Origin: Cyanobacteria bacterium FACHB-63
GTDB lineage: Bacteria; Cyanobacteriota; Cyanobacteriia; Leptolyngbyales; Leptolyngbyaceae
Length of the DNA: 64,000 nt
NCBI GenBank assembly: GCA_014695255.1
Contig: JACJNX010000010.1
Span: forward strand, 1-64,000
Direction of reading: 5' to 3'
The notes beneath the pieces are model-generated. The model had not been told where the DNA came from. It did not search any database and saw only the letters and a list, made by a program, of their open reading frames with translations. Positions 23,799 to 45,330 of the stretch are shown one piece after another. The translations under genes and the position numbers were made by a program. The first letter of the stretch is position 1. Every line of letters starts with the position of its first letter.

Positions 23799-23890
23799 TC
23801 GTTTTCTCCTTTTTTAGTGTGGTTGGAATAGCAGTTTTAATATTCCCGATAAAGCGAAAATGGGTACAGGAACTCGAATTCCCATCTTTG

Positions 23891-24032
23891 TTTTAGAGAA
23901 ATAACTTTGGTTTTAGAGAAATTAGTTTGGGAATCAAGAAATCAATTTTTGTCTTAGAAAAATTCAGTTAGGAATTGAGAAATTAAGTTGGGAATTGAAG
24001 AATCAATTTTGGAGTTGAGAAATTAAGTTGAG
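23891..24032. repeat. Seven imperfect tandem repeats of 20-21 bp
   Basis: Seven consecutive units start at 23891, 23911, 23932, 23952, 23973, 23993 and 24013. They follow the pattern (A/T)NTTGAGAAATNAANTTGG, with the central AGAAAT and the terminal TTGG best kept. The unit length of two helical turns places the A/T tracts on one face of the DNA, so the block may be intrinsically bent. It lies upstream of the minus-strand gene at 23415-23798 and between that gene and the methyltransferase scar. Confidence 0.85.
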
Positions 24033-36280: not shown

Positions 36281-36306
36281 GGGCGTTCTTCGGAATGCCC
36301 TTTTTT
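36281..36306 (+). terminator. Intrinsic terminator of gmd-fcl
   Basis: An 8-bp stem GGGCGTTC / GAATGCCC with a stable TTCG tetraloop and a run of six T (36301-36306). The T-run ends inside the stop codon of the convergent gene. Confidence 0.9.
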
Positions 36307-37729
36307 AGTTGGGAAGGCAGACGTTTGGAGCGCAAAGATTAGGAAACTCGATCGTCGTCATCTCTAATGTTGTTAGATTCAATTTCCGAATTACATGGTT
36401 ATTGGCATCAGCGATAAATAAATGTGTTGCTGTTGCGCTAATTCCAGAAGGTTCATCGAGCGAATCTGCCGCGATCGTGTGACAAAATCCATTTGCGTCA
36501 ATCCGCTTAATTTTGTGATTATAGGTATCCGCAATCCAGAAATTTTCGCGATATTCAATGCCTAAACAATGTTGCAATTTAGCCGTTTCTCCGACTCCAT
36601 CAATATCTCCGAAACTATATAAATTACCACTGCCGCAAATTGTTGTAACTTGATTTGTTTCTAGATTAATCGATCGAATTGAACTGGTTTCACTATCCGC
36701 AATAAACAGATTCTTTCCATTTGAAGTAATGCCACTGGGTTGGGCAAATGCAGCTTCTTGAATTGCACCATCGAAACTGGCTTCGGCCCCAGTTCCCGCA
36801 AACGTTTCAATTTTATCGCCTTGCATTTCCCAGATTTGATGTGCACCGGCCATCGCGATAAATAGACGATCGCCAACTTTTTCTAAATCCCAGGGTGAAT
36901 TTAAATCGACTTCTAAAGCCTTACCACCGTGCGGATAAATTACTCTGCTTTGCTTTCCGGTTCCTGCGATCGTACGAACTGTTCTAGTTTGCAAATCAAT
37001 ACAGCGAATTGCATGATTTCCAGTATCCGCAACGTAGAGTAATTGACTTACACGATCGAATGTCATTCCTTGCGGTGCTGAAAATTGAGCTTGAGCAAAT
37101 CCACCATCAAGTAGTTCTGAACTTCCATTTCCAATAATGTGAAGAACCTCGCCTTCGATCGAACTTATCACGATTCGATGATGTCCAGTATCTGAGATAA
37201 ATAAGTAATCGTTAGCCAAGACTTTGCCAGGAAACGCAAGCGGAGAGAGCGGAAATTCCTCAAGCTCAAACGAAATTAATTGAGATTCGATCGCATTATT
37301 TTCGATTAATTCCTGAATTATTTGATCTAAGAAATCACGCCTTCCTTCACCTGCGATCGATTTCGCAATATATCCTTTCGGATTGAGCAAAACAAAAGTT
37401 GGATAAGCTCGAATTGCATAAGATTGCCAAACTTTGAAATCTTGATCGACTAAAACAGGATGCGTAATTCCGTATCGAAGAATCGCTTGTCGAATATTTT
37501 CGATCGCGCCCTCATTCTCGAATTTTGCTGAGTGAATGCTGAGGATGGTTAAACGATCGCTGTATTTCTGCTCCAAATATTTCAAATCCGGCAAGCTGTG
37601 AATGCAATTAATACAGCCATATGTCCAAAAATCCAGCAAAACAATGCGTCCCCGAAACTCTTTGAGAGACAGGGGACGATGAACATTTAGCCACGCTAAA
37701 TCTTTCGGAAACTCTGGCGCACGAACCAT
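36305..37729 (-). CDS. Thioredoxin-like / NHL-repeat protein (NHLRC2-like)
   Basis: A 474-residue protein. Residues ~20-145 form a thioredoxin/TlpA-like domain with the redox motif CINC (LDFWTYGCINCIHSLPDL) and a cis-Pro segment (AYPTFVLLNPKGYI). Residues ~170-470 form an NHL beta-propeller with repeated DxxNHxI/DTGNHAIR elements (LYVADTGNHAIRCIDL, FIADSETSSIRSINL, WIADTYNHKIKRID, FIADANNHVIRKLNL). This domain pair is that of NHLRC2 and its bacterial relatives, whose function is poorly defined. No signal peptide is visible, so it is presumably cytoplasmic. It begins 9 bases after the stop of the exported protein gene and is probably co-transcribed with it. Confidence 0.85.
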   Translation of the reverse strand: MVRAPEFPKDLAWLNVHRPLSLKEFRGRIVLLDFWTYGCINCIHSLPDLKYLEQKYSDRLTILSIHSAKFENEGAIENIRQAILRYGITHPVLVDQDFKVWQSYAIRAYPTFVLLNPKGYIAKSIAGEGRRDFLDQIIQELIENNAIESQLISFELEEFPLSPLAFPGKVLANDYLFISDTGHHRIVISSIEGEVLHIIGNGSSELLDGGFAQAQFSAPQGMTFDRVSQLLYVADTGNHAIRCIDLQTRTVRTIAGTGKQSRVIYPHGGKALEVDLNSPWDLEKVGDRLFIAMAGAHQIWEMQGDKIETFAGTGAEASFDGAIQEAAFAQPSGITSNGKNLFIADSETSSIRSINLETNQVTTICGSGNLYSFGDIDGVGETAKLQHCLGIEYRENFWIADTYNHKIKRIDANGFCHTIAADSLDEPSGISATATHLFIADANNHVIRKLNLTTLEMTTIEFPNLCAPNVCLPN

Positions 37730-37738
37730 GAAACTCTG

Positions 37739-39688
37739 CTACTCAGCACTCTCCGAAGATAGCGCAGGCTGTGGATTAACAGGAGGCTGAGAAATACGGG
37801 GTTTAAGCGGCATTCCCAATCGTCGTTCGAGTTCAGTTTGTGGCTCAAACTCAGAGGGCGTTGCTTCAGATTCAACAGGCTCTTGAACTACGGGCGGCTT
37901 TGCCTCTTGCGTCGGGATTTCAATAGGCTTGGGTCTTCCCTCTGCTTCAGTCGGTTTTGTCTCTATCGGCGCTGCCACTTCTGGAGCAGATAGATCATCG
38001 GGAATCGGGGTGGGAGAAGGTAAGACAAGCTCAGGTTTCGACTCAGACCGCTTGAATCGGTCAAAGAATCCGCCCTTCGGTGCTTCCTTCACCACTGGAG
38101 CGACTGGAGCGGGCTTGATTTCAATCTGTTCTGGTTCAGCAGGCTCCGTTTCCACAGGTTCAGCAGCTTCCGGCGCAGTCAGATCCTCAGGAACTGGAGC
38201 TGGAGACGGGAGAACGACTGTAGGCTTTGATTCTGAACGCTTGAAACGATCGAAGAATCCGCCCTTCGGTGCTTCCTTCACTTCTGAAACAGGCTGAATT
38301 GGCTCTGGGGTTTTCTCCGCTTCTGGCTCTATGACTGATGTTTCAGGTATAAATACTTCAGGTTGTTCAATCTTTTCTGGCTCTGTTGTTACTTCAGGTT
38401 CAGGGCTTGGCGCAATAACAGGCGCAGCCGGACGCTTAAAGCGATTAAAAAAGCCACCTTGAGGCTTTTCTTTCGGGACTACAGGCGCAACGATTTCAGG
38501 CGCTTCTGGTTCAGGTGCAGGACTTACAGGAAGCTCAATTACTTTTTCCGGCTCAGGTACGATCGTTTTTTCCGGTTCAGGCGATGCCTCTGGACTGGGT
38601 ACAACGCTCGGTTTCGGTTCCGATCGTTTGAAGCGGTTAAAGAATCCCCCTTGCGGTTTTGGAGCTTCAGCAGATTTTGGAGCTGCTTCGATGGGTTGCG
38701 GGACTTCTTTTACCTCTGGATCGGTTGGAGTTTTTTCAACGGCTGGTGCAACTGGAACTGGACTCGGTTCGGGCGCTGAAGGTTCGGCAGTCGGCTTGTA
38801 ATTGGGATCAACGATCGACACCGCTTGATCAAACGGAATTTCACCCCGAACTAATCTTGACAGCGTATCCTGTCCGTTCGGCTCGTAGTTAAAGATCCGC
38901 GCAGTGTTGTTGTAGACGTTCTGAACTGGGTTGCCCTTATCATCTACGTATTCAAGCTGCACCCAGTTTTTACCCGATTTGAAGCCCTTTAAGTAAATCG
39001 GTTGCCAGCGATCGAGCATAAAACTATCGCCATTCACCGTCACTTTCACGCGCCAATCCGCAACCTCATCTTTACTATCCTCCTGCGCGACAATGTGTAA
39101 CGGCGCATTCGTCAAATAGAAATCTAGTAGAATAGGTTCTGCCCCGTAAGTTGCCTGTGGGCGACTGTAAGTAAGTAGCGGCAGTTTTGGATCGGGACTA
39201 TTGTTTGGCGTTTTTGTAAAGACATGAAACGTTGTCTGAGCATATGCCCCATCATTCTTAAAGCTTTCGTGCCAGGGACGACCTGCAAACGCACGAATTG
39301 TGTGAGTTCCTGCTGCTAAATCCTTAAGAACAAGCGGCTGACTCACATCATAAACAGCTTGATACGGTTGATCGTCTAGAAATACATGCAGATGCGGTCC
39401 TAAACCCAGCTTTGCGTCCTTATATAACGGCAGATCTTTAACATTAAATTTGACAGAAACAGTATTATCGTCTATCGCCTCGTCTTGGCGTGGAGAAACG
39501 ATCGACACTTGTGGTTGATACTTATCCAGCAAGGGCTTTAACTGCTGAATCACTTCTGGCGGTGACGCTTCTGAAATCTTCCCTGCTTTTTTCGGGGCTG
39601 CCCAACCGGGTGCAACCGCGCTCAAATTTAGCAGCATTGCCAAGACTAACGAGACTGAAAGAGTTCTAGCCGTTCCGTGCCAGCGCAT
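37739..39688 (-). CDS. Exported proline/glutamate-rich protein with four GGFF(N/D)RFKR motifs
   Basis: About 649 residues from the ATG giving MRWHGTARTLSVSLVLAMLL, a signal peptide ending near GWAAP; an upstream TTG-type start would bury it. Residues ~25-290 are a folded region with beta-rich segments (VSIVSPRQDEAIDDNTVSVK, GPHLHVFLDDQPY, GTHTIRAFAGRPWHES). The remainder is low-complexity Pro/Glu/Ala/Val sequence interrupted by four near-identical motifs, PQGGFFNRFKRSE, PQGGFFNRFKRPA and two of PKGGFFDRFKRSESKP, spaced roughly 60 residues apart. The repeats are conserved in DNA as well. It lies just upstream of the thioredoxin-NHL gene. The motifs look like short linear docking sites in a disordered tail; function unknown. 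Confidence 0.75.
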   Translation of the reverse strand: MRWHGTARTLSVSLVLAMLLNLSAVAPGWAAPKKAGKISEASPPEVIQQLKPLLDKYQPQVSIVSPRQDEAIDDNTVSVKFNVKDLPLYKDAKLGLGPHLHVFLDDQPYQAVYDVSQPLVLKDLAAGTHTIRAFAGRPWHESFKNDGAYAQTTFHVFTKTPNNSPDPKLPLLTYSRPQATYGAEPILLDFYLTNAPLHIVAQEDSKDEVADWRVKVTVNGDSFMLDRWQPIYLKGFKSGKNWVQLEYVDDKGNPVQNVYNNTARIFNYEPNGQDTLSRLVRGEIPFDQAVSIVDPNYKPTAEPSAPEPSPVPVAPAVEKTPTDPEVKEVPQPIEAAPKSAEAPKPQGGFFNRFKRSEPKPSVVPSPEASPEPEKTIVPEPEKVIELPVSPAPEPEAPEIVAPVVPKEKPQGGFFNRFKRPAAPVIAPSPEPEVTTEPEKIEQPEVFIPETSVIEPEAEKTPEPIQPVSEVKEAPKGGFFDRFKRSESKPTVVLPSPAPVPEDLTAPEAAEPVETEPAEPEQIEIKPAPVAPVVKEAPKGGFFDRFKRSESKPELVLPSPTPIPDDLSAPEVAAPIETKPTEAEGRPKPIEIPTQEAKPPVVQEPVESEATPSEFEPQTELERRLGMPLKPRISQPPVNPQPALSSESAE

Positions 39689-40371: not shown

Positions 40372-40849
40372 AAAAAAGGCATAAAAATCTGGAGATCAAC
40401 GGCTCGATCGCCCATATTCAGCAGCTTTTACAACGTTTTATTAATAGGAAGCGCAGGAAATATCAGTTGTGCTCGATTGATTTGATTACAAATTCCAATC
40501 CTTTAGCAATGTAAAGTTAAGCGACAAACTCTTGACTTTTCATTTCCGTTTAGAGCCTGAGACCCAAGCAGCGTCAAGAAATCCAGAACTTTGAATTATT
40601 GTAAATTACGTTCGGAAACGTTTTCATGAAAGCCCTATAATGACCCATTGAGAACCCACGAAGGCACACATCCCGAATTCACGGGAATTCTGGAACCTCA
40701 AACCAAGCTCGAAGCCTGCATTACCGCGACAACGCAACTAGGTCTTATCAACCTCAGTCATTCCGCAGCTAGAGCTTAACAGAAGGGTTTGAGACCAGTC
40801 GCCGGATAGGGGGATAACTCGTTCCTTGTCTAGAGAGAGGAGAGTCTCA
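40372..40849. other. psaA upstream and 5' leader region
   Basis: About 480 bases. A TATAAT at 40636-40641 suggests a start near 40648 and a leader of about 200 nt. The leader carries a GAATTC inverted repeat (40674-40690 region) and a purine-rich ribosome site (GAGAGAGGAGAG) before the psaA ATG. Long psaA leaders are usual in cyanobacteria. I see no gene. Confidence 0.55.
40636..40641 (+). promoter_or_regulatory. -10 element of psaAB promoter (candidate)
   Basis: A consensus TATAAT about 210 bases before psaA. No good -35 hexamer lies 17 bases upstream (CGGAAA), which suggests activator dependence. A clear HLR1/RpaB site was not found, only a half-site-like TTTACAAT on the minus strand near 40600. 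Confidence 0.45.
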
Positions 40850-43105
40850 ATGACAATTAGCCCACCGGAGCGCGAGGCGAAGGCACGGGTGGTCGTTGAT
40901 AAAGATCCCGTTCCCACTTCTTTTGAGAGATGGGGTCAGCCGGGACACTTCGATCGCACCCTAGCTAAGGGTCCCAAAACCACCACCTGGATTTGGAACC
41001 TCCACGCTAACGCTCACGATTTCGATAGCCATACAAGCGACTTAGAAGACGTTTCTCGCAAAATTTTTAGCGCACACTTCGGTCACTTAGCCGTTGTGTT
41101 CATTTGGTTGAGTGGAATGTACTTCCACGGCGCTAAGTTTTCAAACTATGAAGCATGGCTCGCCAACCCCACTGGAGTTAAACCCAGTGCTCAGGTTGTG
41201 TGGGACATCTTCGGTCAAGAAATTCTTAACGCGGATGTCGGCGGCGGCTTCCACGGGATTCAGATCACTTCTGGATTCTTCCAACTGTGGAGAGCGGCTG
41301 GTTTTACAAACACCTTCCAGCTTTATGTCACCGCGATCGGCGGTTTGGTTATGGCTGGTTTGATGTTGTTTGCAGGCTGGTTCCACTACCACAAGCGCGC
41401 TCCCAAACTGGAATGGTTCCAGAACGTGGAGTCGATGCTGAACCACCACTTGTCGGGTCTGTTCGGACTCGGTTCGCTCGCATGGGCTGGTCACCAGATC
41501 CACGTCGCGCTGCCAATTAACGAACTCCTTGACCGTGGAGTCCCTGCGGACAAGATTCCTCTGCCTCATGAGTTCATTCTGAACACCCAATTGATGGCAG
41601 ATATCTACCCCAGCTTCGCTAAAGGTCTGATTCCTTTCTTCACCCTGAACTGGGGCGAGTACGCAGACTTCCTCACCTTCAAAGGTGGACTAAACCCTGT
41701 TACAGGCGGACTCTGGCTGACGGATAGCGCACATCACCACTTGGCGATCGCGGTCATCTTCCTGATTGCTGGACACCAGTACCGCACCAACTGGGGTATC
41801 GGTCACAGCATCAAGGAAATCCTTGAAGCTCACAAAGGTCCGTTTACCGGAGAAGGTCACAAAGGTCTCTATGAGAACCTCACGACCTCCTGGCACGCGC
41901 AACTGGCAATTAACCTGGCAATGGTTGGCTCCTTGAGCATCATCGTTGCACAGCATATGTATGCGATGCCGCCTTACCCCTACCTCGCAACTGACTACGC
42001 AACTCAGTTGTCGATCTTCACGCACCATATGTGGATCGGTGGATTCTTCATCGTCGGTGGTGCGGCTCACGCGGCCATCTTCATGGTGCGCGACTACGAT
42101 CCAGTTGTGAACCAAAACAACAACCTCGATCGCGTTCTGCGTCACCGGGATGCCATCATTTCCCACTTGAACTGGGTTTGTATCTTCTTGGGCTTCCATA
42201 GCTTCGGTCTATACGTGCACAACGACACGATGCGTGCTCTGGGTCGTCCTCAAGATATGTTCTCGGATACCGCAATTCAACTCCAGCCTGTGTTCGCACA
42301 GTGGATTCAAAACCTCCACACGCTGGCTCCGGGTGGAACCGCTCCCAACGCTCTGGCTCCTGCTAGCTATGCGTTTGGTGGTGGAACGATCGCTGTCGGT
42401 GGCAAAGTTGCCATGATGCCGATTGCACTGGGTACGGCGGACTTCATGGTTCACCATATCCACGCCTTCACGATTCACGTCACGGTATTGATCCTCTTGA
42501 AGGGCGTATTGTTTGCACGTAGCTCACGCTTGATTCCTGATAAAGCCAACCTTGGTTTCCGCTTCCCGTGCGATGGTCCGGGTCGTGGCGGTACCTGCCA
42601 AGTGTCTGGTTGGGATCACGTCTTCCTTGGTTTGTTCTGGATGTACAACTCCCTTTCGATCGCAATCTTCCACTTCTCGTGGAAAATGCAGTCCGATGTC
42701 TGGGGTACAGTTGCACCGGATGGAACAGTTGATCACGTAACGGGCGGTAACTTCGCTCAAAGTGCAATCACAATCAACGGATGGTTGCGCGACTTCCTGT
42801 GGGCACAAGCGGCGCAAGTGATTGGATCTTACGGTTCAGCACTGTCGGCTTATGGACTTCTCTTCTTGGGCGCTCACTTCGTTTGGGCATTCAGCTTGAT
42901 GTTCCTGTTTAGCGGACGTGGCTACTGGCAAGAACTGATCGAATCGATCGTTTGGGCACACAACAAGCTCAAAGTTGCACCTGCGATTCAACCGCGTGCA
43001 TTGAGCATTATTCAAGGACGGGCTGTGGGCGTGGCTCACTACCTATTAGGCGGAATTGTCACCACATGGGCATTCTTCCTAGCTCGATCGATTTCCATCG
43101 GATGA
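40850..43105 (+). CDS. psaA: Photosystem I P700 apoprotein A1
   Basis: The larger reaction-centre subunit of photosystem I, in thylakoid membranes. It binds P700, most antenna chlorophylls and, with PsaB, the Fx iron-sulfur cluster. The ATG at 40850 gives the standard [20 protein letters not shown] and a length of 751 residues; an upstream in-frame codon is not used. There are about eleven hydrophobic helices with many conserved His ligands ([35 protein letters not shown]). The Fx cysteine motif is [12 protein letters not shown], and the C-terminus is [20 protein letters not shown]. psaB follows 23 bases later in the same operon. Confidence 0.98.
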
Positions 43106-43128
43106 TGAGCGAGGATTAAAAAACAGCT

Positions 43129-45330
43129 ATGGCAACTAAGTTCCCAAAATTTAGTCAAGACCTTGCCCAAGATCCTACAACTCGTCGGATTTGGTACGGA
43201 ATCGCTACTGCTCACGACTTTGAGAGCCACGACGGAATGACAGAAGAAAAGCTTTACCAAAAGCTTTTTGCAACTCACTTCGGACACCTGGCAATCATCT
43301 TCCTCTGGGCATCTGGTAGTCTCTTTCACGTTGCTTGGCAAGGCAACTTCCCTCAGTGGATCAAAGATCCTCTAAATGTCCGCCCGATCGCTCACGCGAT
43401 TTGGGACCCTCAATTCGGTAAGCCCGCTGTCGAAGCGTTTACGCAAGGCGGCGCGAACTATCCGGTTGATATTTCCTACTCTGGTCTGTACCACTGGTGG
43501 TACACGATCGGCATGAGAACGAATGCTGATCTCTATCAAGGTTCGATCTTCTTGCTGATCCTGTCCGCAGTTCTCCTGTTTGCAGGTTGGCTGCACCTCC
43601 AGCCGAAATTCCGTCCGAGCTTGGCTTGGTTCAAGAACGCTGAATCGCGCCTGAACCACCACTTGGCTGGATTGTTCGGAGTCAGTTCGCTGGCTTGGGC
43701 AGGCCACTTGATTCACGTCGCAATTCCCGAGTCTCGCGGTCAGCACGTCGGCTGGGATAACTTCCTGTCTACGATGCCGCACCCCGCAGGTCTTGCACCG
43801 TTCTTTACAGGTAACTGGAGCGTGTACGCAGGAAATCCTGATACCGCAAACCACATCTTCGGAACGGCTCAAGGTTCGGGAACTGCAATCTTGACTTTCC
43901 TCGGTGGATTCCATCCGCAAACCGAATCGCTGTGGTTGACCGACATGGCTCACCACCACCTCGCGATCGCGGTGATCTTCATCGTGGCGGGTCATATGTA
44001 CCGCACCAACTTCGGGATCGGTCACAGCATCAGAGACATCTTGAACGCGCACATCCCCCCTGCGGGTGCATTGGGCGAAGGTCATAGAGGTCTGTATGAC
44101 ACCGTGAACAACTCCTTGCACTTCCAATTGGGTCTTGCCCTGGGTGCTTTGGGTACGGTGACTTCACTGGTGGCACAGCACATGTACTCGATGCCGCCGT
44201 ATGCCTTCATGTCGAAGGACTTCACCACACAAGCCGCGCTGTACACCCATCACCAGTACATTGCAGGCTTCCTGATGGTTGGAGCTTTCGCACACGGCGC
44301 AATCTTCTGGGTTCGTGACTACGATCCAGATCAAAACAAGAACAACGTGCTTGCACGGATTCTTGGTCACAAAGAAGCGATCATCTCGCACCTGAGCTGG
44401 GTATCGCTGTTCCTTGGCTTCCACACGTTGGGTCTTTATGTCCATAACGATGTCGTGGTTGCTTTCGGAACGCCTGAAAAGCAAATCCTGATCGAGCCTG
44501 TGTTCGCTCAGTTCATCCAAGCCTCCCACGGCAAGGCACTGTATGGTTTCAACACCCTACTGTCGAACGCGGATAGCATTGCGTCTAACACTGGTGCAGC
44601 TTACCTGCCCGGCTGGTTGGATGGAATCAATAGCGGCGTGAACTCGCTGTTCTTGACCATTGGACCTGGTGACTTCTTGGTTCACCACGCGATCGCACTC
44701 GGTCTGCACACCACCACCTTGATCTTAGTTAAGGGCGCGTTGGATGCTCGTGGATCGAAGCTGATGCCCGATAAGAAAGACTTCGGCTACGCATTCCCTT
44801 GCGATGGTCCGGGTCGTGGCGGTACCTGCGATATCTCTGCATGGGACTCCTTCTATCTGGCGATGTTCTGGATGTTGAATACGATCGGTTGGGTTACGTT
44901 CTACTGGCACTGGAAGCATCTGGCGATCTGGTCTGGTAACGTCGCTCAGTTCAACGAAAGCTCGACCTATCTAATGGGTTGGCTGCGTGACTACCTGTGG
45001 CAGTATTCGGCTCCGCTGATCAACGGCTACAACCCGTATGGCATGAATAATCTGGCAGTTTGGGCTTGGATGTTCCTCTTTGGACACCTGGTTTGGGCGA
45101 CTGGATTCATGTTCTTGATCTCGTGGCGTGGTTACTGGCAAGAATTGATCGAAACCCTGGTGTGGGCGCATGAGCGCACGCCGTTGGCGAACTTGATTCG
45201 ATTCAAAGATAAGCCAGTTGCGCTGTCGATCGTTCAAGGTCGGTTAGTGGGTCTAGTTCACTTCGCAGCAGGCTATGTACTGACTTATGCAGCCTTCGTG
45301 ATTGCAGCGACTGCTGGTAAGTTCGGTTGA
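43129..45330 (+). CDS. psaB: Photosystem I P700 apoprotein A2
   Basis: The partner of PsaA in the photosystem I core, 733 residues. It begins [20 protein letters not shown] and shows the matching helices ([38 protein letters not shown]), the Fx cysteine motif [12 protein letters not shown] and the C-terminal [20 protein letters not shown]. Codon use is strongly biased toward C-ending codons, as in psaA, consistent with very high expression. A clean terminator follows. Confidence 0.98.

Follow-up and report, generated by a model that had tools for sequence, protein, structure and literature searches.

A cyanobacterial protein with repeated FFxRF motifs in a disordered tail belongs to an uncharacterised exported family often encoded beside psaA

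Introduction

A 64,000-nucleotide stretch of DNA from Cyanobacteria bacterium FACHB-63 (contig JACJNX010000010.1, positions 1 to 64,000; hereafter the window) encodes a protein whose Pro/Glu-rich tail carries the motif GGFF(N/D)RFKR four times. What kind of protein is this, what keeps the four copies alike, and what could they bind? An earlier note on the sequence proposed that the motifs are recently duplicated docking or anchoring elements on a secreted scaffold. Our analysis finds such a role plausible and comes to a different view of the duplication; beyond the note, it adds a conserved domain, a lipobox in most relatives and a linkage to psaA.

Results

Architecture of the protein and its family

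Inspected by eye, the N-terminus of the 649-residue protein, MRWHGTARTLSVSLVLAMLLNLSAVAPGWAAPKK, resembles a Sec signal peptide, in agreement with the note's view that the protein is exported (Table 1). The window protein has no lipobox cysteine after the hydrophobic stretch; among its 113 complete and unique relatives, our own pattern detected a lipobox in 80. We considered that lipobox and motif might be alternatives to each other, and rejected this because the strict motif occurs in 38 of the 80 lipobox proteins and in 10 of the 33 others, showing no trade-off.

Table 1 Features of the tail-protein gene and its surroundings (window coordinates).
Feature	Position	Strand	Basis or remark
Whole gene, predicted 649-aa exported protein	37739..39688	-	ATG start
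Probable Sec signal peptide, residues about 1-31	39596..39688	-	AxA-type site, by eye
Conserved domain, residues about 43-300	38789..39562	-	family conservation and structure model
Disordered Pro/Glu-rich tail, residues about 300-649	37742..38791	-	composition and AlphaFold
Motif 1, GGFFNRFKR, residues 347-355	38624..38650	-	
Motif 2, GGFFNRFKR, residues 411-419	38432..38458	-	
Motif 3, GGFFDRFKR, residues 476-484	38237..38263	-	
Motif 4, GGFFDRFKR, residues 539-547	38048..38074	-	
Two 157-nt direct repeats, 37941-38097 and 38130-38286	37941..38286	-	motifs 4 and 3 with flanks
C-terminal TELERRLGMPLKPR, residues 618-631	37796..37837	-	core in 12/117 unique tails
psaA and psaB, conserved divergent neighbours	40826..45330	+	
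MAPEG gene, between tail-protein gene and psaA	39859-40371	+	

The note knew the arrangement from no named family, and searches of Pfam, NCBIfam and PDB sequences likewise gave no match to the window protein at threshold. The bacterial Ig domain Big_7 (PF17957) scores 14.8 bits against the whole protein and 17.4 bits against the domain alone, with a gathering cut-off of 24.1, and 28 of 30 family members match it weakly at E ≤ 0.1 (best E 1.2e-4). Weak matches were also found to DUF6130 (PF19625; 23/30 members, best E 2.1e-4) and DUF4399 (PF14347; 1/30, E 0.042), both titled by Pfam as of unknown function; the window domain itself matches neither at E ≤ 0.1, and none of the 30 members matched an NCBIfam model. 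The model of the domain (mean pLDDT 72.7) is confident at model residues about 11-110, that is, protein residues 41-140 since protein numbers are model numbers plus 30. An Ig/FN3-like beta-sandwich is predicted for the first half of the domain with good confidence; for the second half the confidence is low to middling. Model residues about 25-130 resemble in fold the FN3 modules of Clostridium thermocellum CbhA (3pdd, 3pdg, 3pe9) and CelAly B1 (9kvu), the best VIA match having Z 7.8 and rmsd 2.7 over 90 residues; with Z under 8, this likeness may reflect a common arrangement only, and the VIA and Foldseek comparisons of the domain model returned no family beyond the generic sandwich.

The tail is predicted to be disordered and has discrete motif units, in line with the note: AlphaFold block means stay at about 35-45 through nearly its whole length. 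The motifs themselves have pLDDT of about 35-45 in the full-length model and almost no helix, the one exception being a three-residue turn at motif 3. Docking of the motifs on the protein's own domain was considered and dropped, as it is not seen in this model. Away from the domain, pLDDT rises only in the TELERRLGMPLKPR region (block means 74 and 82), and the model lends weak support to the idea that this C-terminal TELERRLG stretch may dock on the protein's own domain.

Matches to the window protein were found in 54 of 58 genomes, its own included, and in a phylum-wide sample of 386 genomes a profile search detected the domain in 162. Judged from these comparisons, the family is a widespread and uncharacterised group of cyanobacterial exported proteins with a conserved, apparently Ig-like region of ~260 residues. 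Open-licence literature, searched by the motif, the psaA neighbour and DUF6130/DUF4399/Big_7, yielded nothing on the window protein in the excerpts available. Outside the class, one genome of the same phylum (G076) encodes a tail-less lipoprotein with the domain (L150:4186-4914), and the domain was found in none of the 17 class-mates searched; this copy could be ancestral, transferred or part of a contaminant contig (3% contamination). Its neighbours look by eye like DoxX and seryl-tRNA synthetase genes.

The motif protein sequence is held while silent sites diverge

FF[ND]RF[KR] occurs four times in the window protein and in none of 20,000 shuffles of its 351-residue tail, so that the motifs reported by the note are real. 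They are regularly spaced (63-65 residues) and gather 12 of the 14 aromatic residues and 8 of the 12 arginines of the tail. Together they have a net charge of +10, and the spacers, with 24.8% Pro and 18.4% Glu, one of -36.

The note held the copies to be nearly identical in both protein and DNA. The protein half of this stands, with 0-1 amino-acid changes in each of the six pairs, but in the DNA each pair has 4-8 differences over 27 bases, and almost all of these fall on third positions. Recent duplication was rejected as the explanation of copies 1 and 2, which differ at 7 of 9 third positions with no amino-acid change. A larger duplication is visible for copies 3 and 4 only (157 nt, 71% identity, 189 nt apart), and for this pair the recent-duplication reading can be kept in part. 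As a general cause of the likeness it is not supported: the copies have drifted apart at silent sites with the motif kept at the protein level, and the motif also occurs in other cyanobacterial lineages.

Comparison of the window strain (L001) with its closest relative (L002) gives the same picture. The motifs are identical at 36/36 residues and the spacers at 278/314, and among identical residues the share of changed codons is similar (6/36 and 33/278, respectively). Together with the silent differences between copies, this indicates that the protein motif is under selection; the unit was duplicated at some time, but it is selection that maintains the likeness. In six further genomes of the genus, identity was 72-89% at motif positions and 55-68% in spacers, in alignments blurred by gaps and shifted copies. 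The number of motifs varies between strains, a point the note had proposed to check: loose-form matches number 4, 4, 6, 5, 6, 5, 4 and 6 in the eight same-genus genomes L001-L008, the window strain included. The tail as a whole is the faster-evolving part, with a dN/dS of 0.25 between L001 and L002 as against 0.08 for the domain.

Within its own genome, the DNA pattern for FF[ND]RF[KR] has six matches. Four lie in the tail; the remaining pair run antisense to longer open reading frames and have no own-frame ORF of at least 80 aa. The strict motif was thus seen in no other protein of this genome, and the possibility that it is a general signal in other proteins was discarded. In the family, a wider pattern gave 56 matches in 42 genomes; 42 of the matches lie by eye at the orthologous locus, and the remaining 14, counted raw in any frame, compare with nine for a reversed-pattern control.

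Motifs recur across relatives in variable form and number

Across the relatives, 140 loci gave 117 unique domain sequences, and 113 of these genes were complete. There are 100 occurrences of FFxR[FRYL], spread over 48 of the 113 tails (0.05 expected), which leaves 65 without it; the looser [FYW][FYWL]x[RK] occurs 167 times in 75 tails, where 4.55 occurrences in 4.4 tails were expected. Even this loosest form is absent from 38 of the 113. The character of the motif is kept in variants such as FFNRFKR, FFGRFRR, FWERFRK, FLNRLRP, YYNRFR and FFNRR: FFNRFKR is the form of the window genus, FFNRFR that of Myxacorys, FFNRFRR/FFGRFRR those of Symplocastrum and Coleofasciculus, and GGFFNRR that of several Nostoc. 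The third aromatic is missing in many Nostocales. Two other tail motifs recur, LPPTLPEII (53 copies, 38/117 tails) and TELE(R/K)RLG(M/I)PL (12/117).

A scan for basic-aromatic nine-residue peaks reached p ≤ 0.05 in only 41 of the 113 tails, and the window protein's own tail was without significance (p = 0.21). Such hooks are therefore not universal, and a universal basic-aromatic hook was ruled out. Tails with one motif or none are common, short tails of 60-130 aa exist, and some motif-less relatives have by eye a basic, amphipathic-looking C-terminal segment instead.

The gene is often divergent from psaA

The gene has a conserved neighbour on one side only. Among the matches listed, psaA lies within 5 kb in 113 of the 140 genomes with both genes, divergently in all 113; in the other 27, the two are apart on one contig (18) or on different contigs (9). 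At the 80 named loci, psaA is the divergent upstream neighbour at 70. For six of the ten without an adjoining psaA, under 1.7 kb is available upstream; at the other four (L033, L066, L101 and L108), more than 5.7 kb contains no psaA. On the other flank, surveyed over up to 6 kb and sometimes less, the commonest gene family is found at only 30 of the 80 loci. A candidate HLR1-like site, which might mark a shared promoter, is present in the common intergenic stretch at 18/70 loci, as compared with 5/70 after shuffling. In the window, a MAPEG gene with a homologue at only one of the 80 named loci intervenes, and directly downstream on the same strand lies a gene for a thioredoxin-like and NHL-repeat protein (36305-37729, minus strand), which has a homologue downstream at 30 of the 80.

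Of the 386 phylum genomes, 182 have psaA (E ≤ 1e-100) and 158 have both psaA and the domain. Among 20 listed of the 204 genomes without psaA, 16 are kin outside the class, G076 being one of them. The 24 psaA genomes in which the domain was not detected at E ≤ 0.001 comprise G049, G286 (which we take to be Gloeomargarita) and 22 genomes of the f2 family of 1.6-1.9 Mb, presumably Prochlorococcus-like from their size. These 24 led us to reject the gene as a perfect marker of thylakoids. In G047, which we assume to be the thylakoid-less Gloeobacter violaceus PCC 7421, psaA is present and the domain is absent even at E ≤ 10.

The domain is retained in endosymbionts without photosystems

Three sampled genomes keep the gene and have no intact psaA (G196, G230 and G313). 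G196 corresponds to the spheroid body of the diatom Epithemia turgida (EtSB) and G230 to that of Rhopalodia gibberula (RgSB); the available excerpts of one report describe most photosystem genes as absent from EtSB and no functional ones as found in RgSB (PMC5638926). With a psaA query at E ≤ 0.001, G196 and a further genome, G466, gave no match, and G230 and G313 gave only stop-ridden psaA/psaB-like fragments. The dN/dS of the domain is 0.15 between G196 and G230 and 0.09 between G230 and G313; for G466 it is 0.14 with G230 and 0.10 with G313. By these ratios, the domain in the photosystem-less symbionts is under purifying selection. In EtSB (L147), an intact domain is followed by only 35 residues of tail, and pieces of the rest appear in other frames; the domain has thus outlived the tail.

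In the family of these symbionts, the domain is present in every one of the 50 genomes searched, split over two matches in G458 and G462. The family includes G437 and G438 (1.4-1.5 Mb), presumably UCYN-A, in which the gene and psaA are both kept, far apart. One of them (L204, in the 1.49-Mb genome of G437) has a tail of near-identical acidic repeats (...QLANEEEILPVSQLEEIITAENEKISEEIP...) with a Lys-rich hydrophobic end.

Because 24 of the 182 psaA genomes are without the gene and three genomes without an intact psaA keep it, gene content indicates that the gene is not simply a photosystem I factor. Thylakoids are described as persisting without photosystems in Epithemia diazoplasts in the excerpts available from another report (PMC11070190), which makes a possible role at the membrane attractive.

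Discussion

The reading that fits these observations best, which we put forward tentatively, is a membrane-anchored exported tether or scaffold, an acidic stalk with weak multivalent basic-aromatic hooks; a docking scaffold for a specific partner comes next. The N-terminal Ig-like region would be held at the membrane, in most relatives by lipid, the lipobox having been lost in the window lineage, and would be followed by the long acidic, disordered Pro/Glu-rich stalk with its several FFxRF(K/R) motifs. Each motif would insert two or three Phe side chains and pair its Arg/Lys with an acidic surface, and several weak motifs acting together could provide avidity, linking the domain to another surface, which could be the membrane leaflet opposite or a partner located on that leaflet. 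Binding by the motifs, its target and its compartment are inferred here, the thylakoid lumen and the periplasm being the candidates; lumenal proteins of unknown function are on record in proximity studies, as far as the excerpts available go (PMC9764255, PMC7880944). The strongly positive motifs in a strongly negative stalk (+10 in -36) and the motif protein sequence held through silent change speak for a tether, as do the export signal read by eye, the lipobox of most relatives, the predicted sandwich and disordered tail, the motif character kept across lineages, the motifs not being predicted to dock on their own domain, and the strict motif not being seen in other proteins of this genome; a copy number that varies within one genus fits the expectation for avidity elements. 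Against it stand the near absence of helix at the motifs in the model, the many tails without the motif and the basic-aromatic scan, significant in a minority of tails. The higher dN/dS of the tail and its decay in EtSB with the domain kept also count against it; they suggest that the work may be done by the domain, with the tail in an accessory role. TonB and TolA are envelope proteins with Pro-rich stalks. Like them, the window protein would be membrane-held with an extended Pro-rich linker that sets functional stretches at a distance; it differs in having several internal FFxRF motifs rather than one folded C-terminal domain, and the Pfam and NCBIfam scans of the window protein found no TonB/TolA C-terminal domain.

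The closest competitor, which we regard as somewhat unlikely, takes the motif for a short linear motif that a single specific protein partner would recognise through an FFxRF pocket; the protein would then be a scaffold for docking, not a tether to a membrane, and the copy number would tune occupancy. The strongly conserved F-F-x-R order (100 occurrences in 48/113 tails) and the 36/36 identical motif residues of L001 and L002 are what such a pocket would favour, and LPPTLPEII (38/117) and TELERRLGMPL (12/117) suggest several partner sites. However, the FF/FW/FL/YY exchanges and the lost third aromatic are looser than expected for a tight pocket, no other motif-bearing protein was seen in the window strain's genome, and psaAB is the sole conserved neighbour. 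If the motifs instead associated with each other through Phe-Phe and Arg-Phe contacts, as stickers on spacers, the protein could self-associate in the lumen or periplasm to give a loose phase or a mesh. The 63-65-residue spacing, the contrast in composition and the variable copy number agree with this idea, but tails with no sticker or only one are common, and we consider it rather improbable. It also seems improbable that the tail is just a flexible spacer through peptidoglycan or lumen, with motifs tolerated without binding and the domain doing all the work. Short (60-130 aa) or motif-less tails in some relatives, the cut and decaying EtSB tail beside an intact domain, and the tail-less homologue in G076 are all as such a spacer would have it; motifs better conserved than the spacers and recurring far above chance are not.

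A fourth rival starts from the neighbourhood instead of the tail: a factor that assembles or stabilises photosystem I from the lumenal side of PsaA/PsaB would explain the conserved divergent pair. It draws on the arrangement in 113/140 genomes (among the matches listed) and at 70/80 named loci, with the commonest family on the other side at only 30/80, but it has to account for the 24/182 psaA genomes that are missing the gene and for EtSB and RgSB, where the domain is intact (dN/dS 0.15) and psaA is absent or a stop-ridden relic. Retention in photosystem-less endosymbionts argues against an exclusive role in photosystem I, and we consider this explanation improbable.

Returning to the tether, a broader form of it, which we think unlikely as it stands, is that the family is a core cyanobacterial envelope or thylakoid tether, paired with psaAB over most of the lineage and serving the membrane itself rather than the photosystem; its retention in nitrogen-fixing endosymbionts that keep thylakoids after losing photosystems, and its absence from G047, presumably the thylakoid-less Gloeobacter violaceus, would be in line with this. 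Under this reading, the FFxRF hooks would represent a novel type of element for membrane spacing in the lumen or periplasm. The larger point lies beyond the motif tail, in an unstudied family paired with psaAB. This pairing, together with survival in symbiont genomes that lack photosystems and in others that are strongly reduced, makes the family a good candidate for a missing thylakoid or envelope part, and it raises the question of whether membrane and photosystem are co-regulated rather than joined in a shared complex. Elsewhere, the window has short tandem repeats at 23886-24029, their units being 20 and 41 nt long.
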